NCBI RefSeq assembly: GCF_003417465.1
Contig: NZ_QVMV01000028.1
Span: 212,159-276,158 of the forward strand
DNA: 64,000 bases
From: Wenzhouxiangella sp. 15190
GTDB taxonomy: Bacteria; Pseudomonadota; Gammaproteobacteria; Xanthomonadales; Wenzhouxiangellaceae
Reading direction: 5' to 3'
The notes beneath the pieces were generated by a model that had not been told where the DNA came from, did no database searches, and saw only the letters and a program-made list of their open reading frames with translations. Below, one piece after another: positions 21,526-52,664 of this stretch. Position 1 is the stretch's first letter. Each line of letters begins with the position of its first letter. The position numbers and the translations under genes were made by a program.

Positions 21526-22563
21526 TTAATCGCTGATACAAGCGGATACGAGCGATTCAAAAGCCTGCCCACCCCGCACTGGATCAGCGACCGCCAACCC
21601 GAGGCGGTTGCTTTCGGCCGCCAGCAGTCGATACGCCGCGTCCTCGCTCAGTGCTGACGTATTCATCGCCACACCGGCACAGCGAATGGCCGGATTGGTG
21701 TATCGCCCCAGACGCACGGTCAGGTCGATAATCTCCTCGATCGTCGGGGTCGGAAAGTCGGGATAACCAACCAGATGCTTGCGGCCGGGCTCGTGGCAGA
21801 TCACGAACACATCGGGCTGACTGCCATGCAGCAACCCCATGGATACCGCGGCAAAGGCCGGGTGGACCAGCGTGCCCTGCCCTTCGATCACGTCCCAGTG
21901 TTCGTCGGGTGCATCCGGGCTGAGCGTTTCCGCCGCACCGGAGATGAAATCCGAAACGACCGCGTCCACGGGAATGCCACTGCCGGCAATCATGATGCCG
22001 GTCTGCCCCGTCGCACGAAAATCGACCAACATGCCACGACGCGACATGGCCTGCGCAAGGGAAAGCGCGGTGTATTTTTTTCCAATGGCGCAATCGGTAC
22101 CGACGGTCAACAATCGCTTGCCACCGCGCCGGGTGCCGGTGCCGGACGGAATACCCTCCGGCGGCCGGCGCAATTCGATCAACCGTCGGCCGTGATCTTG
22201 CGCGGCGGAGTGCAGTTTCGGAACGGATGACAGCTTCGTGTGCAGGCCATTGACAATATCCAGCCCGGCGTCGAGCGCATCGAACAGGGCCGGATACCAG
22301 CTTGCCGGTATGATCCCGCCCGGACTGGCCACACCGATCAGAAGGGATCTTGCTCCCTGCGAGGCGGCCTGGGCCGGCGTCATCGGCTGCAGACCCGTAC
22401 TCACCTTTCCGCCAGGCAGTACATACTCCCCGGTACATGAATCCGGCGCCCAGTCACGCAGCGCGAATGCCGTCTTGGCAAATCCCGTTTCGGTCACATC
22501 GCCCAGAAACAGCAGATAGGGTGTGGGCAGCGCATTCGGGGCGGCTGGCTTGGTGTCGATCAT
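21526..22563 (-). CDS. DUF1611 family P-loop protein (DgcN-like)
   Basis: A 345-residue cytoplasmic protein with an N-terminal Rossmann-like domain (residues about 15-125). The C-terminal P-loop domain contains GTDCAIGKKYTA (Gly155-Lys163 region) and the acidic block HWDVIEGQGTLVHPAFA. DUF1611 includes DgcN, a D-glutamate N-acetyltransferase that works with the racemase DgcA in D-glutamate use. DgcA is not adjacent here, so the assignment is by family only. The ATG at 22563 overlaps the stop of a tiny upstream ORF (22560-22646). Confidence 0.75.
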   Translation of the reverse strand: MIDTKPAAPNALPTPYLLFLGDVTETGFAKTAFALRDWAPDSCTGEYVLPGGKVSTGLQPMTPAQAASQGARSLLIGVASPGGIIPASWYPALFDALDAGLDIVNGLHTKLSSVPKLHSAAQDHGRRLIELRRPPEGIPSGTGTRRGGKRLLTVGTDCAIGKKYTALSLAQAMSRRGMLVDFRATGQTGIMIAGSGIPVDAVVSDFISGAAETLSPDAPDEHWDVIEGQGTLVHPAFAAVSMGLLHGSQPDVFVICHEPGRKHLVGYPDFPTPTIEEIIDLTVRLGRYTNPAIRCAGVAMNTSALSEDAAYRLLAAESNRLGLAVADPVRGGQAFESLVSACISD

Positions 22564-22646: not shown

Positions 22647-22936
22647 GAATACAGCAAGATTGTAGCCAACCTAGATTGTCCCCGCGAACATGGCGTTACC
22701 CGCTGCCGATCAGCACCGACTGCAGGAAAATACCGGGCAACAAGAGGCGACCGAAGGGGCCTTTCGTCATGCGCCGATCTGCGGTCCGGATGCAGGCTTG
22801 AAGCCCTGAAACCAGGTCGGATCCATGGCGCCAGTCCCGTCAACGAATCAATGTCGCCCCACCCCACACGGCACGACCGGACAACGCCGACTCTGATACA
22901 TTGACCGAGTCTCGGATTGTTCTCGTGAGGGGATTC
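22647..22936. other. Intergenic stretch between divergent genes
   Basis: I see no gene, RNA structure or repeat that I can defend in this stretch. It separates the minus-strand DUF1611 unit from the plus-strand flavin reductase gene and presumably holds both promoters. The last bases carry the ribosome-binding site GAGGGG for the reductase start at 22937. Confidence 0.5.
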
Positions 22937-24247
22937 ATGTCAGCTGGAACCGCGCACCGCCTCGTCTGGCTGGTCGCCCTGCTACCGTCGCTTTTGTTCC
23001 TGGCGACGCTTGCCCCCGGGGATCTCTCATCGATGGGGTCGGCCCTCAATACCATCGGCCGACTGGCGGGCGTGGCGGGCCTGGCGATGCTGTTGATGGC
23101 GGCGATACTGAGCGCGCGCATCCCGGGTGTCGATCGGCCATTCGGCGGACTCACGCGCCTTTGGCGCACTCATCACTTCCTCGGGGCAGGGTCGCTCATT
23201 CTGCTGCTGGCTCATCCCCTCCTGCTGGCTTTCTCGGCGGGCACTACCAGCCTGTACGCCGCCAGAACAATGCTCTTCCCGCCCCTGTCCGACCTGGCCA
23301 GCTGGAGCGGCTGGGCAGCACTGATTCTGATGATGCTCTTTCTTGCCCCTAGCTTCTCGTTCTTCGGCCACCCCCGTTTCGAACGCTGGAAGAAGCTTCA
23401 TCGCCTGGCCGGGCCGGCCGTGGCGCTGGCACTGATCCACGGCTTCTGGCTCTCGCGCGGCCTTCCCCAATGGCTCAACATCACGGTCTGGTCGGTATTC
23501 GCGATGGTGGCCCTCGGCGCCGTGACGTGGCGCTTCGTGTTTTCGCGCCGAATCGGGCGACGGGGCTGCCGGGTCAGCAAAGTCGAGCGGGTGGCCAATA
23601 ACGTCGTCGAACTGACACTGAGCCCCGAACACGGCAAGTTCGCACACGAGGCGGGCAATTTCGTCTACCTAGCCCCATACGACCCCGGTCTCGAAGCCGG
23701 GTATGGCGAGGAGCATCCCTATACGCTTTCCTCGTCGCCCCTGGAGCCCGCATTGCGCATCGCGATCAAGGACCTGGGAGACGCCAGCCGGGCGATCCAG
23801 TCGATCCGGGAAGGTGCGCATGCAACGATCGAGGGTCCGTACGGCCGCTTTTTTCCCAATCCGCGCGCCGTGACGGATCCGGAATTGTGGGTCGCTGGCG
23901 GCATCGGGATCACCCCGTTCCTGGCCCGCATGCGTCTTCTGAAGCAACTTGGGAAGCCTGCCGATGCATGCCTGATTTTCTGTGTCCAGGACGAGGCGCG
24001 TGAATTGTACGGGCAGGAGTTGCGCTCCCTGGCATCCAGCCTGTCGGGATTCAGGCTGAATTTCCATCACTTCTACCGCGAGGGCCCCATCACGCGCGAA
24101 TACATCGAAAAAGTCTGTCCGGACATGGCACAGCGGTTGCTGCATGTGTGCGGTCCGCGACCGCTCAAGGACCTCGTCGTCCAGCATGCCCGAGCGGCCG
24201 GGATACCGGTCTCGAGTATTCACTCCGAAGAGTTCGAACTGCTATGA
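22937..24247 (+). CDS. Ferric reductase-like membrane flavoprotein (FAD/NAD(P)H oxidoreductase)
   Basis: A 436-residue protein. The N-terminal half (residues about 1-215) has six or so helices of the ferric-reductase/NOX heme b type, with paired histidines (RTHHFLGAG and LLLAHPLLL; LHRLAG and LIHGFWLS). The C-terminal half has an FAD-binding barrel (EEHPYTLSSSP) and an NAD(P)-binding domain (GGIGITPFLARM, LHVCGPRPL). It moves electrons from NAD(P)H across the membrane. ATG 22937 has the strong site GAGGGG eight bases upstream; an earlier TTG at 22901 has none. It overlaps the cytochrome b5 gene by ATGA. Confidence 0.87.
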   Translation: MSAGTAHRLVWLVALLPSLLFLATLAPGDLSSMGSALNTIGRLAGVAGLAMLLMAAILSARIPGVDRPFGGLTRLWRTHHFLGAGSLILLLAHPLLLAFSAGTTSLYAARTMLFPPLSDLASWSGWAALILMMLFLAPSFSFFGHPRFERWKKLHRLAGPAVALALIHGFWLSRGLPQWLNITVWSVFAMVALGAVTWRFVFSRRIGRRGCRVSKVERVANNVVELTLSPEHGKFAHEAGNFVYLAPYDPGLEAGYGEEHPYTLSSSPLEPALRIAIKDLGDASRAIQSIREGAHATIEGPYGRFFPNPRAVTDPELWVAGGIGITPFLARMRLLKQLGKPADACLIFCVQDEARELYGQELRSLASSLSGFRLNFHHFYREGPITREYIEKVCPDMAQRLLHVCGPRPLKDLVVQHARAAGIPVSSIHSEEFELL

Positions 24248-24621
24248 GCCTGAAAAAACCGGTCTATACCGCCTTCGTGGCATTCTGGGCATGCGTGTTC
24301 ACGATCGTGCTGCTCGATTCACTGTCCGGTACCGATTCCGGACACCCGCCCCCGCAGGCACACTCCCCAGACACCTACACCCTCGCTGAAGTGGCGCGCC
24401 ACGACACACTCGATGATTGCTGGATGGCGATCGAGGGCAAGGTCTATGACTTCACCGATTACATCGAGCGCCATCCGACCGAACCTTCAGTCCTCGAACC
24501 CTGGTGCGGCAGCGAAGCCACCGAGGGCATGAAGACCAAGGGTTATGGCAGAAATCACTCTCAGCGTGCCTGGCGCGCCATGGAGGACTATCTGATCGGG
24601 GAGCTTTCCGAAGAAGAATGA
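24244..24621 (+). CDS. Membrane-anchored cytochrome b5-like protein
   Basis: A 125-residue protein with an N-terminal helix (residues about 7-27, VYTAFVAFWACVFTIVLLDSL) and a cytochrome b5 heme domain (residues about 43-120). The domain starts TYTLAEVARHDTLDDCWMAI. Heme ligands are the His of ERHPTEPS (replacing the usual HPGG) and the His of GYGRNHS. The start codon overlaps the stop of the flavin reductase, so the two are almost certainly one electron-transfer pair: NAD(P)H to FAD to membrane heme b to b5. Confidence 0.85.
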   Translation: MSLKKPVYTAFVAFWACVFTIVLLDSLSGTDSGHPPPQAHSPDTYTLAEVARHDTLDDCWMAIEGKVYDFTDYIERHPTEPSVLEPWCGSEATEGMKTKGYGRNHSQRAWRAMEDYLIGELSEEE

Positions 24622-24628
24622 AATGCAA

Positions 24629-24660
24629 ACCGCCCGGCCGCAAAAGAGCGACCGGGCGGT
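24629..24660 (+). terminator. Hairpin after the cytochrome b5 gene
   Basis: A perfect 9-bp stem ACCGCCCGG/CCGGGCGGT encloses a 14-base loop, 7 bases after the cytochrome b5 stop. The following bases (CTGTTCACC) are only weakly T-rich. It is probably the 3' end of the reductase-b5 transcript, although intrinsic termination may be inefficient. Confidence 0.5.
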
Positions 24661-24748
24661 CTGTTCACCATTGGGCCCGTGGCGTAATGCGGGCTTGGAT
24701 GACGGTCGACGGCGGACTGGCCGCCGATTCCAGGGAGTCCTTACGGCC

Positions 24749-25381
24749 TCAATCGAAGCGCTTGGGACCCTCGCTGGCATAGTATTCCGCCAGCGCCTTC
24801 ATATCCTCGTCACTGAGATCCGCCATTTCGGGCGCCATCTTTTCCGGCTGCCAGCGCTCTTCATCACGGTAGTACTTGAACTGATGCATCAGGTAGTGCT
24901 TCCACTGGCCGGCCAGAATTCCGGCATCGTCAAGTGCCAGAGCCCCGGCATCGGTATGGCAACGATCACATTTGGCCTCGTGAATGGAAGCGCCCTGGCT
25001 CACCAGTTCCTCGTCGACTTCCTGTTCGGCCGGAGAGAAAGGCTGGGACGCATAGTGGCCGGCGGCCTCGATCTGCTCATCCTCCGACATTGCGTCGGCC
25101 AGCGCACAGTGGTTTTCGGCGCCATCCTCGGCCTCTTCCTCGAAGTAGGAATCAGCACACGGCCTGGCTTCGGCCGCAAAAATCGCAAGCTGGTTCTCCA
25201 GAAAATAATCCGAGGCCCCGGCAATGATCGGAACCGTGCTGTCATCGCTGATGCCATCCTTGCCATGACAGGAAGTACAGGATTCCACTGAATCCGGCGC
25301 TTCGGCCATGGTTACGCCTGCTCCGGCGAGGAAAACCGTAGCGAGGGCGAACTTCACTGAATGACTGAACATGCTTCTCAT
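24749..25381 (-). CDS. Periplasmic diheme cytochrome c (c4/c553 type)
   Basis: A 210-residue secreted protein. After a signal peptide (FALATVFLAGAGVTMA) there are two c-type heme sites, CTSCH and CDRCH, each in a class I cytochrome domain. Likely sixth ligands are the Met residues in later segments (EKMAPEMADL in the second). The first domain carries an additional Cys pair. ATG 25381 is preceded by GGAGGAGGT, a very strong ribosome-binding site. The gene is the last of the electron-conduit block, 82 bases after the MtrB-like gene. It probably shuttles electrons in the periplasm. Confidence 0.87.
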   Translation of the reverse strand: MRSMFSHSVKFALATVFLAGAGVTMAEAPDSVESCTSCHGKDGISDDSTVPIIAGASDYFLENQLAIFAAEARPCADSYFEEEAEDGAENHCALADAMSEDEQIEAAGHYASQPFSPAEQEVDEELVSQGASIHEAKCDRCHTDAGALALDDAGILAGQWKHYLMHQFKYYRDEERWQPEKMAPEMADLSDEDMKALAEYYASEGPKRFD

Positions 25382-25463
25382 GAGACCTCCTCCAAATTTT
25401 GGGTCACACGCCATATCGGAGTGTGTAAGACTTATTTTACCACTGAAAGCCGTGGGGCTTTAC

Positions 25464-27611
25464 TCAATCAGCCGAAAACCGGTAGCGCAGCATCACGTTG
25501 AAAACATGCACTGTGCCGTCCAGCGGTCGCTGCCCCAGACTCAACAGGGTCGGCACCGTATCCGGCGCAACGTCATCGCGGAAGAAATCGTCTTCAGTGA
25601 GTTTGCCGACAAGATAGCCGAAACGCAGGTTAAGGCGTTCTCCGAGCTCACGCTCTGCAGAAGCTTCCAGTGTCATGCGGCTGGTTTCCAGCGTCGGAAA
25701 CGGGGGTGCCGAACCGCGCTTTTGGACCTCGATATCTCCATCGGCCGATGCGTAGGTGAAATCCAGCCTGCCTTCCACCCACTTGCCCGGGAGATCGCCG
25801 AAATTCAAGCCAATGCCGGCCGTGCGGAAGTCGTCACTCTGCCGGGCTTCCCAGGGGGCGTCTTCGATGTTGTCGGCCCCGAGAATAGTCGCGTCCAGCG
25901 ACTCGAAGGCCACGAACGCATGCGCGGTGATGTCACTGGAAAAGGTGGCTGAAACGTCCAGGCCATAGCTTCTGGCCCGTCCGTCACTGAGACCGATTTC
26001 GGTATCGGAAAATTCCTCGTCGGCAAACTCGGCGAACAGGCTGGCAGCCACGTTCTCGCGCAGGGCATAGTCAGCGACGAAGCGCAGTGCATCCCGGTCC
26101 TTTTCCGCGAAATGGAAGCGTCGCAGGCTGGGATTGACCTGCGGGCCGAGACGAGCCGGATCGAGATCGTTGTTGCGCTCCTCACGACTGGCTTTCACAT
26201 TCACGTTCAGGCGGGACACGGGCGTCGCCCGTATCTTGAAGGAATAGAGATTGGTATCCGTGTTCTCGACCTCCTGCAGACTACGCTCCATTCCCTTGTG
26301 TGTCGCCGAGGCTGTTACCTTCAAGTCCGAGGCCACGCGATAGTCGAGCGTTGCATTCATGCTGGTCCGTTCGTAACTGTACGGCTCGTAGGCACGTTCG
26401 TCCATCACGAACGTGTCCGAAACGACCTGGACGAATGAATCGACAGGGGTCTTGTTGTCGCGCTCATCGTAGCGGAACTGCAGCTTGGCCCGGAGCCGGT
26501 CGGTCAGGTTGCTCGTGGCCCGCAAGTTCGCTATCTGCGTATCCACACGCCCGTCGAGATCGCTTCGGGGCAAACTCGGGTTTGCCAGGCTCGTATTGAG
26601 TGTCGGCGCCAGGAACTGCTCGTCCTGCTCGCTTCGGCCGACAGCCACGTGCCCGGAAAGCATCAACCACTTCGAATAACGCCAGGACCCGGAAAGCATG
26701 AACTGGTGAAACTGGTTCTCGGGTGGCTGCGCCAGTTCGCCCAGATCGGCCCCATTGATTCCGGCAAAGGGATTCTGCCAACGCACCGACCGGTTGTCAT
26801 TGTCGAAACGCGAGAGGTGATAGGCCGCTTCCAGCTGCCAGCGGTCCCTGACATAGCCGACCGCCGCCTCAACCCGGGTGGTTTCGTAATCGACGGGTGA
26901 TGCCAGTTCGGCGGCCCGAAAGATAAAGCTCCCACCCCGAATCAGGTTGCCTTCCTTGCGGGTCTGCTGCACATCCACGCGATACCGCCACGGGCTCTTG
27001 CGGTTCACTTCCAAAGCCAGCCCGAGCGTTTTCCGCTTGTGCCGGATATCGACGCCGTGCAGGCTGCCGGCGAGTGCCGTCATTTCATCCGTCGTGCCGC
27101 CGCGGACCCAGTCGGCGGGCAACGTCTGATTCGCCGTGCCTGCCCCCTCGAATATCGTCCGGGTATCACTCGTATCGAGATAGGGCGTTTCGTCGTAATC
27201 GAGACTCACACTGTAGCTGCCCTGCCGTCCGCCCTCGACCGACAGCGTGCGGCTATCGAGGCCGAGCCGTTCTCCATATAAATCCAGGTAGCGAGCATCC
27301 TCCGTGCGATAGCGTAAATCGACGCCGGCCGCTCCATAGACACCCTCCTGTTCCAGGCCACGATAGTTGCCGAAATCGAACAGGTCATCGGAGACATAGC
27401 CGGCTCCCAGCAGCACGGAACCGCTCAGGCCATAAACGAACGGACAATCCTCACAAATCCACTCACTGGTATCGGGTCCAGTCGACTCCGACTCCTCTTC
27501 TTCCTGCGACGTAGCCCGGTCCTGGCCCGAAACCGACATACCCATCAGAAGGAAACCGATGAAGGCGACGGCCCTGACTTGAAACCTCCGATGGCGTTGA
27601 CTGGCTGTCAT
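25464..27611 (-). CDS. mtrB: MtrB/PioB family outer-membrane beta-barrel
   Basis: A 715-residue protein with an N-terminal signal. The mature N-terminus carries a CxxC (WICEDCPF), a feature of MtrB proteins. The rest is a long series of alternating aromatic/polar strands (for example GSYSVSLDYDETPYLDT and LNLRFGYLVGKL) of a barrel of about 26-28 strands, ending YRFSAD. In Shewanella, MtrB is the sheath through which MtrA passes electrons to the surface cytochrome. It begins 20 bases after the MtrA/DmsE gene, in one operon with it. Confidence 0.88.
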   Translation of the reverse strand: MTASQRHRRFQVRAVAFIGFLLMGMSVSGQDRATSQEEEESESTGPDTSEWICEDCPFVYGLSGSVLLGAGYVSDDLFDFGNYRGLEQEGVYGAAGVDLRYRTEDARYLDLYGERLGLDSRTLSVEGGRQGSYSVSLDYDETPYLDTSDTRTIFEGAGTANQTLPADWVRGGTTDEMTALAGSLHGVDIRHKRKTLGLALEVNRKSPWRYRVDVQQTRKEGNLIRGGSFIFRAAELASPVDYETTRVEAAVGYVRDRWQLEAAYHLSRFDNDNRSVRWQNPFAGINGADLGELAQPPENQFHQFMLSGSWRYSKWLMLSGHVAVGRSEQDEQFLAPTLNTSLANPSLPRSDLDGRVDTQIANLRATSNLTDRLRAKLQFRYDERDNKTPVDSFVQVVSDTFVMDERAYEPYSYERTSMNATLDYRVASDLKVTASATHKGMERSLQEVENTDTNLYSFKIRATPVSRLNVNVKASREERNNDLDPARLGPQVNPSLRRFHFAEKDRDALRFVADYALRENVAASLFAEFADEEFSDTEIGLSDGRARSYGLDVSATFSSDITAHAFVAFESLDATILGADNIEDAPWEARQSDDFRTAGIGLNFGDLPGKWVEGRLDFTYASADGDIEVQKRGSAPPFPTLETSRMTLEASAERELGERLNLRFGYLVGKLTEDDFFRDDVAPDTVPTLLSLGQRPLDGTVHVFNVMLRYRFSAD

Positions 27612-27631
27612 GACTGCTCTCCACGCTCCGG

Positions 27632-28606
27632 TTAACGGTTCAGGATGGCTCCTGAAGGATGATTCGATCCGTGCACCTGTGAATGGCAGCTCAGGCAGCT
27701 GCCCGACATCAGGAAGTTGGACGGCTGGCCGGACGGAAGGTCATCGCCCGTTCGCCCGATGCTGGGGTGACCCATTCGCGAGTGGCACTGCTGACAGAGC
27801 AGCGGTGCACGCCGCGTCAGCAGATCCGGATTGTTCGAGCCATGCGGCTGATGGCAGGTCGTGCAGTCCTCGGTAACCGGGGCATGCTCCCACAGAAACG
27901 GTCCGCGCATTTCCGCGTGACACTGGAAGCAATTCTGGTTGATCGTCGGGCTGTCCAGCATGGCTTCGTTGAGGCCCCCGTGAGGTTCGTGACAGTCGGT
28001 GCAAGCCATTTCGCCAAAGCGAATCGGATGCCCGTATGCACGGTGGACTTCGGCACGCTGTTCGACATGGCAGTCCATGCATACCTGGGGCTGGCTCGAT
28101 GTCACGGTTACCGGATCGCGTCGCGTGTGAACGCTGTGGCAATCGGTGCAAGCCAGTTTCTGCGATTCGTGTACGCCTCCGTCCCAATCGTGTTGCTGTT
28201 CGCGGTGGCATCCAAGGCAGGTCTCGTTCTCGCGCGCTTGCGACCACGGAGAATTGGGCCCGAAAGCGGGCATCGGTGGCCGTTCCTGGCCAAAGCGCAC
28301 ACGGCCGGCATGGTCGCCGCCGGGGCCGTGGCACGCCTCGCACTGGTTGCCTCCGAACGGTGTCCGCTCATCGGCCTCGACGCCGTGCGGCCCTTCGAAG
28401 ATGGCCATCAAATGAGCGCTTTCCTCGTCCCCGTGGCAGCTCAGGCAGGAGTCCGCACCATCGCTGGTATAGGCGGGAAGAGGTTCTGCATCATCCTCCC
28501 CCTCCTCGGCCGCTCCAACCGGACCGAACATCGCCAGGCCGACGACACCCGCCAGCAAGATGACGCCGGCAAAGGCAAACTCAAAAAATCTCCGGCAATT
28601 AGCCAA
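27632..28606 (-). CDS. mtrA: DmsE/MtrA family periplasmic decaheme cytochrome c
   Basis: A 324-residue protein with ten CxxCH heme sites (CLSCH, CEACH, CLGCH, CTDCH, CMDCH, CTDCH, CFQCH, CTTCH, CQQCH, CLSCH). It is the MtrA-type wire that inserts into the MtrB barrel. I propose the TTG at 28606 as start: AGGAGA lies seven bases upstream, and translation then begins ANCRRFFEFAFAGVILLAGV, a proper signal peptide. The longer ATG start at 28687 would place a 13-bp hairpin (28650-28680) inside the coding region. Confidence 0.85.
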   Translation of the reverse strand: MANCRRFFEFAFAGVILLAGVVGLAMFGPVGAAEEGEDDAEPLPAYTSDGADSCLSCHGDEESAHLMAIFEGPHGVEADERTPFGGNQCEACHGPGGDHAGRVRFGQERPPMPAFGPNSPWSQARENETCLGCHREQQHDWDGGVHESQKLACTDCHSVHTRRDPVTVTSSQPQVCMDCHVEQRAEVHRAYGHPIRFGEMACTDCHEPHGGLNEAMLDSPTINQNCFQCHAEMRGPFLWEHAPVTEDCTTCHQPHGSNNPDLLTRRAPLLCQQCHSRMGHPSIGRTGDDLPSGQPSNFLMSGSCLSCHSQVHGSNHPSGAILNR

Positions 28607-28649
28607 TCCCTGTCTCCTGAATATCGACGGTTTGCCCGCTCTTGAACAT

Positions 28650-28680
28650 CCGACCTGCCGGCTCGAGGCCGGCAGGTCGG
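28650..28680 (-). terminator. 13-bp hairpin between omcA-like and mtrA-like genes
   Basis: A perfect inverted repeat: CCGACCTGCCGGC, loop TCGAG, GCCGGCAGGTCGG. On the minus strand it lies 18 bases after the OmcA/MtrC-like stop and 44 bases before the proposed TTG start of the decaheme gene. No T-run follows it, so an attenuator or an mRNA-stabilising/processing hairpin that sets subunit ratios is more likely than full termination. Confidence 0.6.
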
Positions 28681-28697
28681 CAGTCACGCTCTATCCG

Positions 28698-31160
28698 TTA
28701 GTCGTCCAGACCGTGTGCTTCTTCCACCGAAACGAACCCGTCAGCGCCGTGGCAGAAGCTGCAGTTCTCCGGGCCGGCCATGTCGATTTTTGCCTGCGTA
28801 TCCGGATCGGAGAACGGATCGGGGTTCAGCAGGAACGCATTGCCGAAGGAGAACCCGCTGTCACTGCGCACGGACATGTGGGTCGTCGCCACTTCGGAGT
28901 CATGGCAAGACGAGCACACCGCTGCCGCCGCACTAGCGTTATTGTCGATGGTCGGGTCGGACGCGGCCGCATCATCCGGCGCATATCCCGTGGCACCGAA
29001 GCGGCTTCCCGCGATGACCGTGGCATTGGAACTCAGCGTCGTCGCCAGCACGTTGTCGCCGAGCGGAAGGTTGTAGGTATCTTCCATGTGGCAGGCCTGG
29101 CATTCGGCCGGCGAGCGCGGATAGCCGACATGGCCGTAGTCGTGCGGTGTACCACCAAAACCGTACGCGACATACGGCATCTCGCGCGCCGCGCTACCGT
29201 GAATGGCATGAATCATGTACTTGAAGTCGACGGTGTTGTCTTCGAGAAAATCTGCAGCTTCAAGGTTCTCGCCATTGACCATTCCGTCGGGATCGATCGG
29301 TCGCCTGAACAGATCGGTCGCGTTCGGGTTGTGGCAGGCCACGCAGGCTTGCGGATTGTCGGTGCGGTTGCCGCCGTGGAAAGCCAGCCCGTCGTTTTCA
29401 CCGTGACAGTCCTGGCACTTGGCCATATCGACGACCATGCGCCGGGGCATCGCTTCGGCATCGTTGATCGCAAATGCCTTCGTGGCCGAGGTCACCGGAA
29501 TGTTGTCGTCATAGGCACCATCGTGGTCGAAGTCACCGGCCGGATGACCCTCAAGGACCACCGTGCCGGAACCCAGACCGTCAGTAGTGATGGGAATACT
29601 CACTGGCGAAGCAATCGCCGACGTGTCGACCGTGTAGGTGCCGTCACCGTTGTCGGTCACACCCATTGGCAGCGTACCGCTACCATCGGACAGGGGGACA
29701 CTGGCCGGTTGGGCAACCGGCCGACCGGTCACGCTCGTACCCTGGCCGTCGGCGACATTGGTGTAGTCGGCATTCGGCCAGGCGATATCCATGTTGACAC
29801 TGGTGGCACTGCCGGTGAACTCGGGATCGCTGGCGATATCGTACGGTGCATCGTCGTTGGTCGGATCGGTAATCGAGAATGTCACCACCGGTGATTGACC
29901 TTCGGCCGTGTTGGAGATGTCCAGAATGTTGTAGGCGATCCGCCGGGCGGCCGCCTGGGAATCGATCACGTGATAGGCGAGATTGCCCTGCAGGAATCCG
30001 GTCTCGGAATGGCATGCGACACAGGTGTCGTTCGGCTGGGCCAGACCGATGTGGTTGCGGTTGGCATTGGTCAAGCCGCTTTCATCAAACGCCAGATCAT
30101 CGTGGCAGGAAGCGCAGACTTCGGCGGTCGCCCGATTGTCGACCCAGTCGGCCTGCGGCGTTTCGGGATTGTCGGGATCATGGCAGCTCGCGCAGTTACG
30201 CACATCCTGCGGAAACGCCACATGGCTGAAGTCCTGCGGCGGCGAACCGAAATTCTCGCAGCCGTAACCACAGAACTCATAGGGCTGGGTGAGATTCTCG
30301 CCGAAGTGAATCTTGTGAATCATCACCGAGAATTCCATGTTACTGCCGGTGCCACCGTCGAACGAATCCGGCTGGTGACAGGAAACGCACTGGTCGACGT
30401 GCTGCCGAGGCCCGCCGTGAAAGGCGAACTCCTCGCTGCCGTGACAGGATGCGCAGTCTTCCTGCGTGATGAGCTTGCGCTGCTCGATGCCGCTTGTATC
30501 GCCGGTCGATGGCTGAATGTCAAAAGTGGTATCGCTGCCCGCCACCTCTTCACCGAAGACCTCGGCGTCGCGAATTTCCATACCCACTCGATGCGTCAGC
30601 GTGGGTTCAAACACCACCTCGGATATGCTCTCGAGATCCTGGTCGAAGGTGAACCGATAGTCACCATCGCCCAGATCTTCGAGCATGCCGTTCGAATAGG
30701 TGCTCCCCTGCACGGCTTCCACACCTTCATCATCGGCACGCACATAAGTCGACCAGTTCCGGGTCTCTCCGTTGCTGCCGGGGATCAGTTTGTTGACGGT
30801 AAAGCTGAAACTGACGTTTTCACCCTGCTCCAGCCCGTCAATGCCCAGGCCGAATTCGTCGACAACCCGGAAGTCGATGACCGGCTCTCCATCCAGACTC
30901 GCGCCCGTAATGACCGGAAAGAGGTGCTCCGGCGCCGGTCTTGTCTTCACTTCATGCGATTCGAGCTCGCTGTTTCCAATACTGTTCCCATTACCGAATC
31001 TCTCGGCAATTTCGGGCGGCATCGATTCAAAGAACCTGCTTAGATCTTCATCACTCTTGTCAGCAGCGAAGGAGGCGGGCACAAGAAGAGCCCCCAGCAT
31101 CAACCCCGCAAGAATCACGCCGCAACGTCGTGCGGTTCTCAAATTCGGATAGTCGTGCAT
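28698..31160 (-). CDS. OmcA/MtrC family decaheme surface cytochrome c
   Basis: An 820-residue secreted protein with ten CxxCH sites in two pentaheme groups (CASCH, CVSCH, CASCH, CASCH, CVACH; then CQDCH, CVACH, CQACH, CSSCH, CSFCH). Beta-rich domains precede each group, as in MtrC/OmcA. The signal peptide (GVILAGLMLGALLVPASFA) ends in an AxA-type site with no lipobox Cys, unlike the Shewanella proteins. ATG 31160 has GGAGAGCGAAG just upstream. It is the predicted terminal reductase for an extracellular acceptor. It lies 42 bases after the NapC-like gene in the same direction. Confidence 0.88.
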   Translation of the reverse strand: MHDYPNLRTARRCGVILAGLMLGALLVPASFAADKSDEDLSRFFESMPPEIAERFGNGNSIGNSELESHEVKTRPAPEHLFPVITGASLDGEPVIDFRVVDEFGLGIDGLEQGENVSFSFTVNKLIPGSNGETRNWSTYVRADDEGVEAVQGSTYSNGMLEDLGDGDYRFTFDQDLESISEVVFEPTLTHRVGMEIRDAEVFGEEVAGSDTTFDIQPSTGDTSGIEQRKLITQEDCASCHGSEEFAFHGGPRQHVDQCVSCHQPDSFDGGTGSNMEFSVMIHKIHFGENLTQPYEFCGYGCENFGSPPQDFSHVAFPQDVRNCASCHDPDNPETPQADWVDNRATAEVCASCHDDLAFDESGLTNANRNHIGLAQPNDTCVACHSETGFLQGNLAYHVIDSQAAARRIAYNILDISNTAEGQSPVVTFSITDPTNDDAPYDIASDPEFTGSATSVNMDIAWPNADYTNVADGQGTSVTGRPVAQPASVPLSDGSGTLPMGVTDNGDGTYTVDTSAIASPVSIPITTDGLGSGTVVLEGHPAGDFDHDGAYDDNIPVTSATKAFAINDAEAMPRRMVVDMAKCQDCHGENDGLAFHGGNRTDNPQACVACHNPNATDLFRRPIDPDGMVNGENLEAADFLEDNTVDFKYMIHAIHGSAAREMPYVAYGFGGTPHDYGHVGYPRSPAECQACHMEDTYNLPLGDNVLATTLSSNATVIAGSRFGATGYAPDDAAASDPTIDNNASAAAAVCSSCHDSEVATTHMSVRSDSGFSFGNAFLLNPDPFSDPDTQAKIDMAGPENCSFCHGADGFVSVEEAHGLDD

Positions 31161-31202
31161 CTTCGCTCTCCTTCCTTCCATTAAAGTTGTTTCAACCACC
31201 GA

Positions 31203-31808
31203 TCACATATCCTCGGGCAGCTCGTGGGCAACGCCCTTGTGGCAATTGATGCAGGTCCTGCCCGTTGCTTCCCGGTATTCGGCCGAATGTCGGCGCTGGG
31301 CCTGGCGATCCTGCAGGTCTTCCGACATCGCCTCGTAGCTGTGGCAGCTGCGGCATTCACGCGAATCGCTTTCTTCCAGACGCGCCCACACCCGTTCGGC
31401 CATCTCGAGCTTGTGTGCGTCGAACTTTTCCTGGGTATCGATCTTGCCCATCAGGTGTCCGGGCACCTCGACCAGACCGGCGCGGATCTTGGTCGCCATC
31501 TTGGGGAAGAAGGCCTTGGGAATGTGGCAGTCCTTGCACTTGGCGCGCACGCCACTGCGATTGGAGAAATGGTGGGATTCGGTGTAGTCGGGGTAGACGA
31601 ACGATTCCATTTCGTGGCAGGCAGTACTACAGAATTCGTTGGTGCTGGTATACGCGATGACGGAATTGAAACCCGACCAGGCGATTATGCCGATGATGAT
31701 CCCGCCGATCAGAAGTGTGCCGAAGGCGTAACGGCTGCTCGGGCTACTGAACGCCCGCCATGTACGTCGAAATATCCCCGGGCGGTCGTTATTCTCGTTG
31801 TCTGGCAT
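31203..31808 (-). CDS. NapC/NirT/CymA-like tetraheme quinol dehydrogenase
   Basis: A 201-residue inner-membrane cytochrome. One N-terminal helix (residues about 29-50) is followed by four heme sites: Cys60-Cys64-His65 (CSTACH), Cys91-His95 (CKDCH), Cys152-His156 (CRSCH) and Cys186-His190 (CINCH). The first site has three residues between the cysteines instead of two. The family oxidises menaquinol or ubiquinol and feeds periplasmic redox partners. It is first in the conduit operon, 131 bases downstream of an FNR box, and its start is preceded by AGGAGACCTAC. Confidence 0.88.
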   Translation of the reverse strand: MPDNENNDRPGIFRRTWRAFSSPSSRYAFGTLLIGGIIIGIIAWSGFNSVIAYTSTNEFCSTACHEMESFVYPDYTESHHFSNRSGVRAKCKDCHIPKAFFPKMATKIRAGLVEVPGHLMGKIDTQEKFDAHKLEMAERVWARLEESDSRECRSCHSYEAMSEDLQDRQAQRRHSAEYREATGRTCINCHKGVAHELPEDM

Positions 31809-31932
31809 GTAGGTCTCCTGGTCCCTGGTGCCCCGCTGGCCGGCATCTGTCGATCCAGTGGACCGATCGCAGGCTCAATCAAGGTGATTTCCGCTCTGGA
31901 TCACAGCCTGCCAAGTCTGCAGGTGATGCATG

Positions 31933-31946
31933 TTGATATAGATCAA
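31933..31946 (-). promoter_or_regulatory. FNR/ANR box upstream of the electron-conduit operon
   Basis: The sequence TTGATATAGATCAA is a perfect match to the FNR half-sites TTGAT-N4-ATCAA. It lies in the 288-base gap between the prenyltransferase gene and the NapC-like gene, centred about 131 bases before the latter's ATG. No good -10 hexamer is seen at class II spacing (32 bases from the centre), so a class I position or a repressing role is possible. It predicts oxygen-controlled expression of 31808-24749. Confidence 0.8.
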
Positions 31947-32096
31947 AATATCTCGATTTAGGCATGGCCGTATCCCTGCTTCTCGGACCAGTTACACAGC
32001 CAGCGTCCGATTCCCCTACCGGACTGCGGGTGCCTGGCCCCTGTGCCACTTTACACACAAGGATTATTCGTGGCAAGGCGTTGAGGAGCCGGCCCC

Positions 32097-33026
32097 TCAG
32101 GCGGCGATGATCAGTCCGAGAGAGATCGCCAGACCGCCGGCCAGTGCCGCAGCGATGGTGTTCTGGACGGCCGCCTTGAGCTGCGCGCTGTCGTGCCCGG
32201 CCCACAGCGAACGCAGCGCCAGCAGCGAGAACACACCGGCCGGCAGAGCGATCAGGACAAGCGCCGGCATCGCCGACAAACCGACCATGGCCATCAGACT
32301 GGTCCAGGCCAGCACGACCACGGCAAGGTAGAGCACACGGCCCTTCTCCGGACCGAGCCGAACGATCCAGTTGCGCTTGCCGGAGCGCTCATCCGCCAAA
32401 CGGTCGGGAAACTGCGCCGCGATCAGAACCGCCGAGATCAACAGGGCATATGGCAGACCGGCCGCAACCGCTGTCCAGGCCGCCTCACCGGTCATGACCA
32501 TGTAGCTGCCCAACGGGACCAGGATGCCGAAAGCTGCCCCCACGGTCAGTTCACCCAGACCGCGCGCGCTCAGCCGCAACGGTGGCGCCGAATAAGCCCA
32601 GGCGAGAAACATTCCGCCGGCACCGAGCCAGAGCAGGCCGGCACCAGCCGCCCGCAGGAGCCACAATCCGCAAAGCGCCCCCAGGGCGAGCAGCACAAGG
32701 GCAAGAACTCGCTGTTGAGGCAGGCTCAGGAGACCACGCTGAAGCACGCGGCTGCCGCCACTGAACGGCGAGATATGGTCGCGGTTGATACTGTCGCTGC
32801 CCAGATCGTGACAATCGTTGAAGGCATTGGCGCCGGCGTGGATGGCCATGACACCGATAATCGTCAATGTTCCGGCGACCGGATCGTAGGAGGCGCCATC
32901 GTAAACGGCCGTGCCCTGTCCGATCAGGGCTGGCACCACACTGGCCAGAACGAACTGTGGCCGGGTCGCCAGCCATGCCCCCTGCAACCGTTCCCGGCCC
33001 ATCACGTCGGTTCCTCCGTTCGCCAT
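32097..33026 (-). CDS. UbiA family prenyltransferase (MenA-like)
   Basis: A 309-residue protein with about nine helices. The first Asp-rich site is NDCHDLGSDSINRD, followed by SPFSGGSRVL, and the second is FPDRLADERSGKRNW. These features match 1,4-dihydroxy-2-naphthoate prenyltransferases and related UbiA enzymes that attach the isoprenoid tail of quinones. It starts 3 bases after arcA ends and lies upstream, same strand, of a quinol-oxidising cytochrome operon. A role in making a low-potential quinone for that pathway is plausible but inferred. An inner start at 33002 is possible. Confidence 0.78.
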   Translation of the reverse strand: MANGGTDVMGRERLQGAWLATRPQFVLASVVPALIGQGTAVYDGASYDPVAGTLTIIGVMAIHAGANAFNDCHDLGSDSINRDHISPFSGGSRVLQRGLLSLPQQRVLALVLLALGALCGLWLLRAAGAGLLWLGAGGMFLAWAYSAPPLRLSARGLGELTVGAAFGILVPLGSYMVMTGEAAWTAVAAGLPYALLISAVLIAAQFPDRLADERSGKRNWIVRLGPEKGRVLYLAVVVLAWTSLMAMVGLSAMPALVLIALPAGVFSLLALRSLWAGHDSAQLKAAVQNTIAAALAGGLAISLGLIIAA

Positions 33027-33029
33027 CCG

Positions 33030-34274
33030 TTACAGATCCTGCCGGCACACCGGCATCGTCATGCAACGGCAGCCGCCGCCGCCGCGCGAGAGTTCGGCGC
33101 CACCGATGGTCACGACCACGCGATCGTCGGCTTCGATGCGACGTCCGCCCTCGATCAGTTCGGGGGCATCGATCACGCTGAAACCGGCCCGGTCGAGCGC
33201 CTCGAGGGTATAGCGATTATGCCGGTAACCCAGGATCTGGCCCGGGCCGAAGGCGAAGAAGTTGGCGCCGCTCGCCCACTGCTCGCGCTCCTGATGGAAT
33301 TCCTGCTCGCCACCGCAATTGATCGGCGCCAGATCGATGCCCAGGGCCGACAACGCGCCAAGCACGTCGCGATACTCGGTAATCGTCGCGTCCGGGCCGC
33401 CGTTGAACGCACAGTGAAAGGCACGCGAGCGGCTGGGCCCGGTAATCAGCGGCGGAAAGACCACGCACTTGTCGTGGTCGACCATGGTGAAGATCATGTC
33501 GAGATGGATCGTCGCCCGCGTCTTGGGAATCTCGACGACGATGAAATTGCTGATCGGCCCCTGCGAGGCGATCGATCGCATCAGCTGATCGATGCCGGCC
33601 AGGGAGGTTCGCTCGCTGCAGCCGATGACGGCGAGATCCTTGCGGATCACCAGCAGGTCGCCGCCCTCGATCGTGACTTCCGAGTTGCGGTTTTCGGTGC
33701 CGTCGAAATAGAACCCGGAGGAATGAAAGTCCGGGTGATACTTGAAAACGGCCTTGAGCAGCAGCGCCTCGGCGGTGCGCGCACGAAAAGCCATGGAGCC
33801 GATGATGATGCGATCATTGACGCACATCGTCGCGTCACGCGTGAAAAAGGTATTGGGCAGCGGCGGAATGGCCCAGCGCGACGGACTGAGGTACTTTTCG
33901 AGACTGATCGGCTTCTTGGGGGTGCCCTCGACAAGCTGCCGGGCCAGGGCCTCGGCCGGCAGCGCCAGCAGTTCGTCGCGCACCTCGGGGGAGTCGAACA
34001 GATCGCACATGGCCTGCACCAGGGCCTCGCACACCCGGCCGTCCTCGAGCACCTCCACCAGCAGGTCGTGCAACTCGATCGTGTGGCACACCTTTTCAAG
34101 CACACCCTTGAGTTGCCGGTGCTCGCCGGTAGCCAGCTCGAGATTGAGAATATCGTCGTAGAGCACTTCGGCCGCCGTCTGCGGCGTCATGTTCTCGATT
34201 TCCTGGCCCGGCGAGTGGACAACCACGCTCTTGAGCGGACCGATCTCGGAATTGACGTTGATATCAATGGACAT
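33030..34274 (-). CDS. arcA: Arginine deiminase
   Basis: A 414-residue cytoplasmic enzyme converting arginine to citrulline and ammonia. The N-terminus shows SEIGPLKSVVVHSPGQEIENMTP, and the guanidino-binding region is present. The catalytic cysteine is Cys404 in the C-terminal CRCMTMP, with the FTRDATMCVND and HLDMIFTMVD blocks that supply the Asp and His residues. The deiminase pathway normally needs arcB and arcC for ATP; neither is nearby. It is joined by a 3-base gap to a prenyltransferase gene. Confidence 0.92.
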   Translation of the reverse strand: MSIDINVNSEIGPLKSVVVHSPGQEIENMTPQTAAEVLYDDILNLELATGEHRQLKGVLEKVCHTIELHDLLVEVLEDGRVCEALVQAMCDLFDSPEVRDELLALPAEALARQLVEGTPKKPISLEKYLSPSRWAIPPLPNTFFTRDATMCVNDRIIIGSMAFRARTAEALLLKAVFKYHPDFHSSGFYFDGTENRNSEVTIEGGDLLVIRKDLAVIGCSERTSLAGIDQLMRSIASQGPISNFIVVEIPKTRATIHLDMIFTMVDHDKCVVFPPLITGPSRSRAFHCAFNGGPDATITEYRDVLGALSALGIDLAPINCGGEQEFHQEREQWASGANFFAFGPGQILGYRHNRYTLEALDRAGFSVIDAPELIEGGRRIEADDRVVVTIGGAELSRGGGGCRCMTMPVCRQDL

Positions 34275-35095: not shown

Positions 35096-35599
35096 GTGAC
35101 CACAAGGGCGCGGCGAATCCGGGACACGCTCCGCTATGGCTGGCATCTCGCGCTCGTCCTGGCCCTGCTCTGGATCGGCCTGACCGGTGGGCGTGACTGG
35201 CTCTTCGGGGCCGCCGTAGTCGCCCTGGCCGTATTCGTCAGCCGCAGCCTGGCCCCCATGGAACGGCCGCACTTTTCCCTGAGCGGCCTGCTGCGCTTCC
35301 TCGGTCACTTCCTCTTCGCATCCTTGCAAGGGGGCATCGATATCGCCCGCCGGGCCTTCGATCCCCGGCTCCCGCTCGAGATCACCAACTGGAAACATCA
35401 TTTCCGGATACCGCCGGGCCAGCCGCGGACCGTCTTGGTCGCCACCATCAGCCTGCTGCCGGGGACCCTGTCGCGGGGGCTCGGCAGCGACTGGGTGCTG
35501 GTCAATTCGATCGCCGGCGACCGCCGGCACGAAGTCGAGAAACTCGAACGGCTCACCGCGGCCATGTTCAGGATCGATCTGGAGGAAGACCATGAATAG
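35096..35599 (+). CDS. mrpE: Mrp antiporter subunit E (MnhE)
   Basis: A 167-residue protein with two or three N-terminal helices and a soluble C-terminal part. Family signatures are the GGIDIARRAFDPRLPLE block and TISLLPGTLSRGLGSDWVLVNSI, which match MnhE. It starts at GTG 35096 and overlaps mrpF by 8 bases. It is the first gene of the second Mrp operon (E-F-G-AB-C-D-D-D). The subunit is needed for antiporter assembly or activity in studied systems. Confidence 0.9.
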   Translation: MTTRARRIRDTLRYGWHLALVLALLWIGLTGGRDWLFGAAVVALAVFVSRSLAPMERPHFSLSGLLRFLGHFLFASLQGGIDIARRAFDPRLPLEITNWKHHFRIPPGQPRTVLVATISLLPGTLSRGLGSDWVLVNSIAGDRRHEVEKLERLTAAMFRIDLEEDHE

Positions 35600-35855
35600 C
35601 TTCCTAATGAGCGCCGGGCTGTTTCTGCTCATCAACCTCGCCGTCGGCCTGCTGCGACTCTATCGGGGTCCCGGTCCGGCTGATCGCATTCAGGCGCTGT
35701 TGCTGTTCGGTACCACGACCGTGGCGGTTCTCTTGTTGCTCGCCTACGCCGAAGCCCTGCCAGCCCTGGTCCACGTGGCCCTGGTCTTCGTCATGCTGGC
35801 CGCCATCGCCAGTATCGCATTCGTGCAACTCCCCCACAGGACGGGAAAGGACTAG
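35592..35855 (+). CDS. mrpF: Mrp antiporter subunit F (MnhF)
   Basis: An 87-residue protein with three helices and the MnhF landmark RLYRGPGPADRIQALLLFGTTTV (the GPxxxDRIxAL core). The C-terminus, IAFVQLPHRTGKD, is basic. It overlaps mrpE by 8 bases and is followed 6 bases later by mrpG, in the usual E-F-G order. Confidence 0.92.
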   Translation: MNSFLMSAGLFLLINLAVGLLRLYRGPGPADRIQALLLFGTTTVAVLLLLAYAEALPALVHVALVFVMLAAIASIAFVQLPHRTGKD

Positions 35856-35861
35856 ATACCG

Positions 35862-36143
35862 ATGAGCACCTGGCTGGCCATTGCGCTGATCCTGATCGGA
35901 TGCAGCTTCTTCCTCGCGGGCACCGTCGGTCTGCTGCGCTTTCCCGACACCCACTCGCGCCTGCACGCACTGACCAAGGCCGACAACCTCGGGCTGGGGT
36001 TCATCTGCGCCGGCCTGGCTGTGCATGACGGCAGCCTGACCGGGACCATCCACCTGCTGTTCGTGTGGGCCCTGGCGATGATGGCCGCGACGGTGTCGGC
36101 CTTCCTGATTGCGCGCTGGGCCGACGAGGAGCCCGAGCATTGA
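35862..36143 (+). CDS. mrpG: Mrp antiporter subunit G (MnhG)
   Basis: A 93-residue, three-helix protein with the family core GTVGLLRFPDTHSRLHALTKADNLGLG, clearly paralogous to the mrpG at 68-394. The stop TGA overlaps the TTG start of the next gene. It is slightly shorter than the first-operon copy, ending RWADEEPEH. Confidence 0.92.
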   Translation: MSTWLAIALILIGCSFFLAGTVGLLRFPDTHSRLHALTKADNLGLGFICAGLAVHDGSLTGTIHLLFVWALAMMAATVSAFLIARWADEEPEH

Positions 36144-37111
36144 GCCTGCTGTCACTGATCTTCGATGCCCTGCTGGGCCTGGGCCTGCTCTGGCTGGCCT
36201 GGCGTGCGGTGTCCTCACCGGGACTGTTTGCCAGCGTGGTTCTTTTCATGGTTTTTGGCTTCGTCATGGCGATCACATGGGCGCGGCTCGGCGCCCCGGA
36301 TCTGGCACTGGCCGAGGCGGCCATCAGCGCCGGGCTGACCGGCGCGTTATTGCTCAGTGCCTGCAAGGCGGCATTGACCGACACCGGCAACGACAATGAG
36401 CTTCCCGACGAACCCTCCACGGTCCGCCGCCGCTGGCCGGCCGCGCTGATCTGTACCGGGCTCGGCGCCGTGCTGAGCATCGTCATGATCCAGGTCGCCG
36501 CCAACCGCGCCGCCGTGCCCCCCGCGCTGGCCGAAGCGGTTACCACCCATCCGCTCGACAACCCCATTACCGTCATGCTGCTCGACTTGCGCGGCTACGA
36601 CACGCTGCTCGAGGTGACCGTGCTGCTGACCGCGTTCCTGGGCGTGAGGATCCTGCTGGAGCAAACCGAACTGCCCCGGCTGCACGCACCGAGAGCGACC
36701 ACGCCGCTGATGGTCGATCCCCTGCTTGCCATGGCCACACCGGTGCTGCTGATGACGGCCCTGTACCTGTTCTGGACGGGCATGGAAGCGCCGGGCGGCG
36801 CCTTCCAGGCCGGTGCCCTCCTGGGTGCACTGGGCGTCATGTACACGCTGACCGGGCGTTTCGAACCGCTGGATCGAACGCCCGTGCTCCTGAGGCTCGG
36901 GCTGATCCTGGGCCCGGGCATGTTCGCGATCTTCGCCTGCCTGGCGCTCACCTGGAGCGAGTGGCCGCTGGCCTATCCCGCCGGGGCCACCGGCGCCGCG
37001 GCGGTGGCGATCGAATTCACCCTGATGATTTCGATCGCCGTGACCCTGACACTCCTGTTTTCGGCCACGCCCGGACTGCATGCCCGACACATGGGGGTTC
37101 GGCATCCATGA
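36140..37111 (+). CDS. mrpB: Fused DUF4040-MbhE-MnhB subunit of Mrp antiporter
   Basis: A 323-residue membrane protein. The DUF4040/MbhD segment is at residues about 25-80 (GAPDLALAEAAISAGL), an MbhE-like segment at about 100-190 (DLRGYDTLLEVTVLLTAFLGV), and MnhB at about 195-323 (MEAPGGAFQAGALLGAL). In the first operon the same domains are two genes (381-629 and 626-1348). I choose the TTG at 36140, which overlaps the mrpG stop and has GAGGAG nine bases upstream. No ATG in this frame fits before the DUF4040 domain. Confidence 0.85.
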   Translation: MSLLSLIFDALLGLGLLWLAWRAVSSPGLFASVVLFMVFGFVMAITWARLGAPDLALAEAAISAGLTGALLLSACKAALTDTGNDNELPDEPSTVRRRWPAALICTGLGAVLSIVMIQVAANRAAVPPALAEAVTTHPLDNPITVMLLDLRGYDTLLEVTVLLTAFLGVRILLEQTELPRLHAPRATTPLMVDPLLAMATPVLLMTALYLFWTGMEAPGGAFQAGALLGALGVMYTLTGRFEPLDRTPVLLRLGLILGPGMFAIFACLALTWSEWPLAYPAGATGAAAVAIEFTLMISIAVTLTLLFSATPGLHARHMGVRHP

Positions 37112-44088: not shown

Positions 44089-44091
44089 GAA

Positions 44092-49565: not shown

Positions 49566-49569
49566 TCCC

Positions 49570-49818
49570 ATGTGCCTCGCCGTACCGGTCGAAGTCATCG
49601 AACTGCTCGAGCACGACCAGGCCCTGGTCGATATCGGCGGCGTCAGGAGCCGCGTGTCGCTGGCCTTCGTCGACGATGTCGAGGTGGGTGATTACGTCAT
49701 CGTTCATGTCGGACACGCCATCACCCGGCTTGACGTGGAAGAGGCCGAGCGCACACTCGAACTGTTCCGTGAAATCACCGATCACCTGGCTGCCGAGAAC
49801 AATGCGCTACGTCAGTGA
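49570..49818 (+). CDS. hypC: Hydrogenase maturation chaperone HypC
   Basis: An 82-residue protein starting MCLAVPVEVIE; Cys2 binds the Fe(CN)2CO precursor. It is a small OB-fold-like chaperone that carries the Fe group from HypD to the large subunit. It ends 17 bases inside hypD. Confidence 0.95.
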   Translation: MCLAVPVEVIELLEHDQALVDIGGVRSRVSLAFVDDVEVGDYVIVHVGHAITRLDVEEAERTLELFREITDHLAAENNALRQ

Positions 49819-50926: not shown

Positions 50927-50933
50927 GTTGCCG

Positions 50934-52652: not shown

Positions 52653-52664
52653 ACCCGCTCTGTC

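Follow-up and report, generated by a model that had tools for sequence, protein, structure and literature searches.

The 64-kb stretch of the genome of Wenzhouxiangella sp. 15190 analysed here (hereafter, the window; host genome G000, 3.13 Mb, 99.8% complete) carries on its minus strand a cluster of five genes whose products belong to the protein families of MtrCAB-type extracellular electron conduits; the properties of these proteins, their putative electron sources and their relationships to known systems are the focus of the present work. Assigned with Pfam and NCBIfam models, the five genes are the following:

31203..31808, minus strand: NapC/CymA-like membrane-anchored tetraheme cytochrome, predicted quinol dehydrogenase (PF03264, NapC/NirT, 218.7 bits)
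28698..31157, minus strand: OmcA/MtrC-family decaheme surface cytochrome (TIGR03507, 456 bits; cut-off 209.3)
27632..28687, minus strand: MtrA/DmsE-family decaheme cytochrome (TIGR03508, 292 bits; cut-off 192.2)
25464..27611, minus strand: MtrB/PioB outer-membrane barrel (TIGR03509, 446.7 bits; cut-off 240.05)
24749..25414, minus strand: PdsA-like periplasmic diheme cytochrome c (NF049874, 132 bits, E 2.3e-38; cut-off 330)

A preliminary description of this DNA had placed five same-strand conduit genes at 24749-31808, and position, strand and family models bear this out. From NapC through OmcA, MtrA and MtrB to PdsA, the intergenic gaps amount to only 3, 10, 20 and 49 bp, so that the five genes likely form a single transcript. 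The c-type heme sites of the operon comprise 25 CXXCH motifs (3, 10, 10, 0 and 2, from NapC to PdsA) and one CX3CH in NapC; the total of 26 given earlier is right, but one of the sites is not a CXXCH. At the DNA level, the window contains 29 matches to the CXXCH pattern, where 4.28 would be expected and no more than 12 were reached in 100 shuffles; of the 29 matches, 25 belong to the operon and share its minus strand. The gene order, with NapC first and PdsA last, had been contrasted with that of Shewanella; the order is real, yet it is common to Wenzhouxiangella sp. XN201 (G024), which is already part of a published survey, and the synteny search retrieves it also in G042, split over two contigs. 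A third gene order found in the family, OmcA-MtrA-MtrB-PdsA-NapC in one run (L032, G037), has NapC last. The diheme cytochrome c of the preliminary description is present; its closest named type is PdsA and, because its score lies below the NF049874 cut-off, it is here called PdsA-like instead of PdsA.

MtrA, with ten CXXCH sites, aligns over residues 73-351 with residues 59-333 (of 333) of chain A of the solved Mtr complex 6R2Q (E 9.9e-85), and MtrB over residues 48-711 with residues 37-694 (of 695) of chain B. The AlphaFold model of MtrB (pLDDT 83.4, the first 55 residues being unreliable) displays 27 strands of at least 8 residues, barrels of the MtrB/PioB type having about 26, and superposes on 6R2Q chain B with TM scores of 0.85 (query) and 0.94 (target); a barrel geometry unable to hold MtrA was not encountered. 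A CXXC motif at residues 53-56 of MtrB recurs at the N-terminus of the MtrCAB-type MtrB in all 11 genomes read (G042 was left out) and is missing from all 17 rows of the family's other MtrB type; this motif is considered a mark of metal-reducing gammaproteobacteria, although the literature looked at did not confirm it.

The reading frame of OmcA is open from a GTG at 31199; the alternative ATG at 31157 is probably the true start, since the homologue P0001 begins there. The ten CXXCH sites are kept in all 52 aligned rows, and the AlphaFold model of the protein (pLDDT 87, pTM 0.81) retrieves OmcA, MtrC, UndA and MtrF ahead of all else in the PDB, with TM scores against the full-length chains of 0.54-0.59 by query and 0.60-0.72 by target. 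One correction to the preliminary description concerns the lipid-anchor signal, which is absent: the N-terminus is a hydrophobic, plain signal peptide which, by pattern, ends without a lipobox cysteine. Lipid anchoring is a feature of the Shewanella model system, whose MtrC is a lipoprotein (PMC8415449, available in part), and the window does not share it; indeed, a lipobox is found in none of nine full-length OmcA sequences read from loci of the family.

The absence of the anchor was followed in a larger set, composed of the window protein, 120 listed of 325 homologues and the Photobacterium protein, by scoring a pattern (not SignalP) on the first 60 residues; removal of 8 of the 122, which were fragmentary or had no signal, left 114 usable sequences, of which 33 have a lipobox and 81 have none. 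A clade of 69 sequences that includes the window protein has no lipobox by this pattern, as opposed to 33 of the 45 sequences outside it, which makes it likely that the anchor was lost within this clade. In the MtrC tree rooted on Photobacterium the base of the clade has a support of 0.394 and an inner clade of 62 a support of 0.999, and 12 of the 81 lipobox-free sequences, some with cut N-termini, fall outside the clade of 69. A looser pattern is positive in 30 of the 120, including P0042, which belongs to the clade and has its cysteine where the hydrophobic stretch begins; a cysteine at residues 19-45 occurs in 6 of the 69 members, in no case at a site accepted by the stricter rule. Near the N-terminus, a motif of the form FF..MPPE is present in 44 of the 81 lipobox-free sequences and in none of the 33 with lipobox; we can only guess that it might be a docking segment.

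Without a lipid-anchor signal, OmcA/MtrC would likely be held by docking on MtrAB alone. By analogy, docking of a secreted MtrC is plausible, because soluble, anchor-free MtrC is reported to bind MtrAB and to conduct as the native complex does, while type II secretion, the cited export route for MtrC (PMC8415449), is represented in the host by secretins scoring over cut-off. The surface cytochromes of this clade resemble a natural experiment on whether MtrC can function on MtrAB when it has no lipid anchor, a question so far answered, within the literature looked at, in vitro. Two further observations concern OmcA: G012 carries two distinct copies, 73% identical in DNA and each on a contig of its own (L115, L036), one of them adjoining HynL, a hydrogenase gene discussed below; and a plasmid location of the gene was considered and discarded, a tblastn search of 72,556 plasmid records giving one weak match, on a 2.1 Mb Photobacterium replicon.

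On the side of electron entry, the NapC product possesses an N-terminal membrane segment and four c-heme sites, as expected for a quinol dehydrogenase of the CymA/NapC type, and is 42% identical to the CymA-like protein of Photobacterium. Its first heme site is the CX3CH mentioned above, at residue 60 (31614-31631, minus strand), which arises from an in-frame extra codon; we take heme 1 to be the heme nearest the quinol site in the NapC family. The PdsA-like gene, with two c-heme sites, adjoins mtrCAB, and its product is 35% identical to the PdsA-like protein of Photobacterium.

For ubiquinone synthesis, the host encodes a UbiA that scores 294.7 bits (cut-off 275.45). In contrast, it shows no MenD over cut-off (two matches lie far below; 5 of the 101 genomes searched are over), no MenB over cut-off (4 of the 43 genomes of the family are over, plus G025 just under, at a contig end) and no MqnA/D, which are found in none of the 101 genomes while 4 of 14 control genomes are positive. 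Given the lack of these genes in the presence of UbiA, the quinol donor in the host is probably ubiquinol and not menaquinol, in which case useful acceptors would be limited to those of rather high potential. The literature found holds nothing on the quinones of Wenzhouxiangella (searched as quinone and Q-8); in the portions of text available, ubiquinone appears only within the name of the Nqr enzyme. Two genes of the window resemble menA:

32097-33026, minus strand: MenA-like UbiA-family prenyltransferase, UbiA1 (PF01040, 105.9 bits; TIGR00751 menA, 64.7 bits, cut-off 102.15)
56694-57650, plus strand: second MenA-like gene (menA, 75.3 bits, cut-off 102.15)

A menaquinone supply, suggested by the position of UbiA1 beside NapC, is less likely, MenD, MenB and MqnA/D being missing and both MenA-like genes scoring under the menA cut-off; UbiA1 has no match at the same place in XN201 (L044).

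The distribution of these genes among relatives was compared between 12 genomes classed as MtrCAB-type by an MtrB at least 50% identical to that of the window (G000, G005, G012, G013, G014, G017, G024, G025, G037, G040, G041, G042) and the other 31 of the family. Together, menD and menB occur in 4 of the 12 (G013, G025, G040, G041; menB of G025 being the one just under cut-off) versus 1 of the 31 (G033; p 0.017), and in some relatives the conduit may receive its electrons from menaquinol. MenA-like prenyltransferases are also present at L086:13262-15107 and L093:2379-4221, in genomes where none of MenD, MenB and MqnA/D exceeds its cut-off; G017 and G014 have a MenA above cut-off whose gene overlaps that of a sodium/bile-acid-type symporter, an arrangement that could serve the uptake of a naphthoate precursor. 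Small CXXCH proteins, alike by blast (L037:4005-4895, L045:4064-4945 and L086:15185-15514, the last matching Cytochrome_C7), adjoin NapC/OmcA or MenA in relatives with no PdsA match in the stretch, and are possible substitutes for the periplasmic carrier.

A second candidate for the supply of electrons is a hydrogenase encoded at some distance, for whose genes the names Hyn and Isp are our assumption:

42343-47152, minus strand: HynS-Isp1-Isp2-HynL [NiFe] hydrogenase (PF00374, 761 bits; PF14720, 110 bits; an Fe-S/CCG protein; a Nitrate_red_gam-like match just under cut-off)
about 48792-55975, plus strand: hyp genes, accompanying the hydrogenase

The hydrogenase lies 10.5 kb from the conduit, on the same strand. 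HynL is present in 10 of the 43 family genomes, namely in 8 of the 12 MtrCAB-type genomes (the exceptions being G005, G024, G037 and G042) versus 2 of the 31 others (G002, G030), an association with a Fisher p of 1.2e-4 when shared ancestry is ignored. In G012, G014 and G017 (W. limi) HynL stands directly upstream of OmcA, with gaps of 220-480 bp; the distance is 5.6 kb in G013 and G025, whereas in G041 the two lie on different contigs and in G040 the arrangement is undecided. A men cluster adjoins the hyp genes in G041 and G040. From these gene associations, the hydrogenase is a possible electron source of the conduit.

How far such a conduit is new may be judged from the survey of Baker 2022 (PMC8805035, available in part), in which Wenzhouxiangella is placed in MtrCAB Group 3, with pdsA; the MtrC of XN201 served as one of the queries, pdsA occurs in most Group 3 gammaproteobacteria, and a cymA homologue is found in the cluster for at least one member of almost every MtrCAB group. 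In the same survey Group 3 has no experimentally validated member and the direction of electron flow is left open; its main text, as available, has no mention of the terms lipoprotein, signal peptide, hydrogenase, ferric reductase or ubiquinone. The conduit as first described is a further member of this described group, of a kind known in the genus, while the anchor-free MtrC, the hydrogenase link, the pattern of quinone genes and the chromosomal slot considered below were not met in the literature looked at. The closest system is that of XN201 (L044), with the same five genes, order and slot, and identities to the window proteins of 67% for NapC, 77-78% for OmcA, 84% for MtrA, 76% for MtrB and 62% for PdsA; with respect to it, the window adds the MenA-like gene beside NapC, the hydrogenase 10.5 kb away and the CX3CH of NapC. 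All five components are also found in Photobacterium sp. DA100 (NZ_CP119424.1; Vibrionaceae MtrCAB-PdsA-CymA), whose MtrB has the CXXC; there, however, cymA-pdsA is divergent from mtrCAB, and the MtrC has a lipobox (LAAC) and is only 22% identical to the window OmcA/MtrC. With the MtrCAB/CymA system of Shewanella (6R2Q, 4LMH, 6QYC) the window has in common the folds of MtrA, MtrB and MtrC/OmcA; in Shewanella, on the other hand, cymA is not beside mtrCAB, and the periplasmic carriers are FccA/CctA (PMC8805035).

The preliminary description, of a conduit of MtrCAB type accompanied by a quinol dehydrogenase and a periplasmic carrier, finds support in the protein families, in the match of the MtrB model to 6R2Q and in the alignments of MtrA and MtrB. 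Judging from genes and models, we hold it probable, with good though not full confidence, that the operon is a conduit in its CymA-plus-PdsA form, leading from quinol to an anchor-free surface decaheme cytochrome. Electrons from quinol, probably ubiquinol, would enter through NapC; the PdsA-like protein would likely carry them across the periplasm to MtrA inside MtrB, a wire expected to pass them to the surface decaheme OmcA/MtrC, itself presumably exported by type II secretion and likely held on MtrAB by docking. The flow would be outward rather than inward; H2 would be one important source (from HynSL through Isp1/2 to quinone and NapC), and the extracellular acceptor would be one of fairly high potential, such as Mn(IV), soluble Fe(III), oxidized organics or an electrode. 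What argues for this assignment is the concurrence of the family models, the 26 heme sites far above chance, the near full-length alignment of MtrA and MtrB to 6R2Q, the match of the OmcA model to OmcA/MtrC/UndA/MtrF, the recurrence of the five components in Photobacterium, the published Group 3 for the genus, the presence in the host of CcmF, type II secretins and UbiA, and the HynL bias towards MtrCAB genomes.

Some observations weigh against this assignment. CymA is known as a menaquinol enzyme, and Shewanella makes menaquinone, while the host lacks the known menaquinone genes, so that electron entry is uncertain. The CX3CH of NapC is unique to the window among the 10 NapC compared, the other 9 having four CXXCH; the PdsA-like protein reaches 132 of the 330 bits of the NF049874 cut-off; the structure models are of single chains; and HynL has no match in G024 (97% complete) or G042 (83% complete), both with the five-gene arrangement of the window, for which reason H2 is to be regarded as a frequent, not a required, donor.

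The conduit occupies a chromosomal slot whose content varies within the family, and which is bordered by the following genes:

22901..24247, plus strand: FRE, ferric-reductase/NOX-like flavocytochrome b (PF01794, PF08022 and PF00175; Ferric_reduct, FAD and NAD domains)
24247..24621, plus strand: membrane-anchored cytochrome b5 domain protein (PF00173, 68.1 bits)
24622..33030: occupied slot, reaching from b5 to the arginine-deiminase-like (ADI) gene and delimited by blastn of the flanks
33030-34274: arginine-deiminase-like (ADI) gene

The FRE stop and the b5 start share one ATGA, and b5 is taken as periplasm-facing by its N-terminal anchor. In a nucleotide comparison the flanks are continuous: the distance from b5 to ADI is 3.4 kb in G003, where an MtrAB pair is found, and 8.4 kb in the window, while in G002 the two genes adjoin directly; the gap is 20-50 bp in G002 and G014. 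FRE is present in 28 of the 43 family genomes, and b5 follows it wherever the fetched stretch is long enough. What comes after b5 falls into four classes: an MtrA-MtrB pair of another type in 12 of the 28 (G003, G006, G011, G015, G016, G018, G021, G022, G026, G028, G029, G030; split over contigs in G011 and G028); an MtrCAB-PdsA conduit in 4 (G000, G024, G041 and, on two contigs, G042), of which G041 has 4.4 kb between b5 and the conduit and no NapC match there; ADI directly, the slot being empty, in 8 (G001, G002, G005, G012, G013, G014, G017, G025); and an undecided content, or neither, in 4 (G008, G010, G035, G040). The MtrA-MtrB pairs of the type seen in G018 (AB-CW3) and G026 (W. marina) stand beside b5-FRE like the window conduit, and several of them share its outer flank; they differ from it in having no MtrC, NapC or PdsA match in the stretches fetched, and an MtrB only 27-30% identical to that of the window, without the N-terminal CXXC. 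In G016 two MtrAB pairs (L064, L065) are found, each beside an ADI gene, as a result of duplication or of a mixed assembly. The b5 of several relatives (loci L033, L034, L041 and L101, examined with the window) keeps two cysteines (..CW.., ..WCG..), which would suit a periplasmic disulfide.

Outside the family, a FRE homologue (28-32% identical) adjoins MtrAB in 5 of the 6 FRE-bearing genomes of the order, with no b5 match, and G385, of another order, has the arrangement MtrA-MtrB-b5-FRE. Class-wide, a link between FRE and MtrB was sought and found weak: among 369 genomes, MtrB occurs in 28 (E up to 1e-20), FRE in 23 (E up to 1e-15) and both in 4, versus 1.7 expected; the two are side by side only in the host and G385, and in three genomes a FRE of 40-51% identity is found without any MtrB match. 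We infer FRE to be a partner of the conduit on the evidence of the family, of the five genomes of the same order (without b5) and of G385. In a tentative extension of this idea, to which we assign a low probability, FRE and b5 would together constitute a quinone-independent inner-membrane feed to MtrA-MtrB wires, and Wenzhouxiangella would swap conduits in the slot beside it. The doubtful route implied would run from NAD(P)H to FAD, the two b hemes, b5 and MtrA; the conduits exchanged would be, equally tentatively, nothing, MtrAB, or anchor-free MtrCAB, which brings its own supply of quinol and often of H2. Were such a feed real, one surface wire could be driven by either NAD(P)H or quinol, through an entry unlike CymA, NetBCD or MtoC. 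Within the literature looked at, no report of a ferric reductase or b5 together with MtrAB was met; as related prior art, inner-membrane proteins of the porin-cytochrome clusters PCC3 and PCC4 have a two-heme histidine pattern in common with ferric reductase domains (PMC5566968, available in part). The three states of the slot (empty, MtrAB, MtrCAB), together with the hydrogenase tie, allow the feed of the wire by ubiquinol, menaquinol, NAD(P)H or H2 to be addressed within one genus, and the same comparison allows the direction of flow through the outer-membrane wire to be asked.

The same neighbourhood lends itself to another explanation, which we consider unlikely: conduit and FRE-b5 could reduce extracellular Fe(III) for uptake rather than for respiration, FRE passing electrons from NAD(P)H to b5 and MtrAB. 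The Ferric_reduct domain of FRE, the MtrAB pair following b5 in 12 of the 28 FRE-bearing family genomes and the b5-less FRE-MtrAB neighbours in five of six other genomes of the order are in line with assimilatory iron reduction; nevertheless, FRE-b5 is retained in the 8 genomes with an empty slot, the window conduit has its own quinol dehydrogenase and PdsA and is convergent to FRE-b5, and linkage to a hydrogenase suits respiration better. An inward flow of the kind proposed for the Mto pathway, in which Fe(II) or a cathode would supply electrons that reach ubiquinone by way of NapC, is in turn quite improbable. The host seems ubiquinone-only, as reported for Sideroxydans ES-1, which has the Mto pathway and no menaquinone genes (PMC13390432, available in part), and the MtrCAB of Shewanella can be driven backwards (PMC8805035), but MtrC and PdsA belong to characterized reductive chains (PMC8805035), the linked hydrogenase suggests a supply of reducing power, and the N-terminal CXXC of MtrB, as a presumed mark of metal reducers, also speaks against inward flow. 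Finally, a DmsEFAB-like system, with the MtrA/MtrB homologues feeding an extracellular terminal reductase instead of minerals, is extremely improbable: NCBIfam does name the MtrA gene DmsE family, but no molybdopterin reductase (DmsA/DmsB) is found among the five operon genes and the five flanking genes scanned, and the OmcA/MtrC decaheme occupies the place of the reductase in the cluster.

As for the remainder of the window, a gene for a DUF1611 protein near DgcN (435 bits, cut-off 480; 21526-22563, minus strand) lies between a small gene and FRE, and has no match at the same place in G024 or G003. The salt-adapted gammaproteobacterial host proposed in the preliminary description agrees with the genus Wenzhouxiangella, and is fitted also by two Proton_antipo_M clusters (about 782-7600, and 35096-42038, plus strand), which by gene make-up would be Mrp-type antiporters. 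At 60359-63257 (plus strand), a Mur-ligase-like gene (weak Pfam match) is followed by a gene without Pfam match, a pair which, in our assumption, resembles poly-gamma-glutamate synthesis genes.

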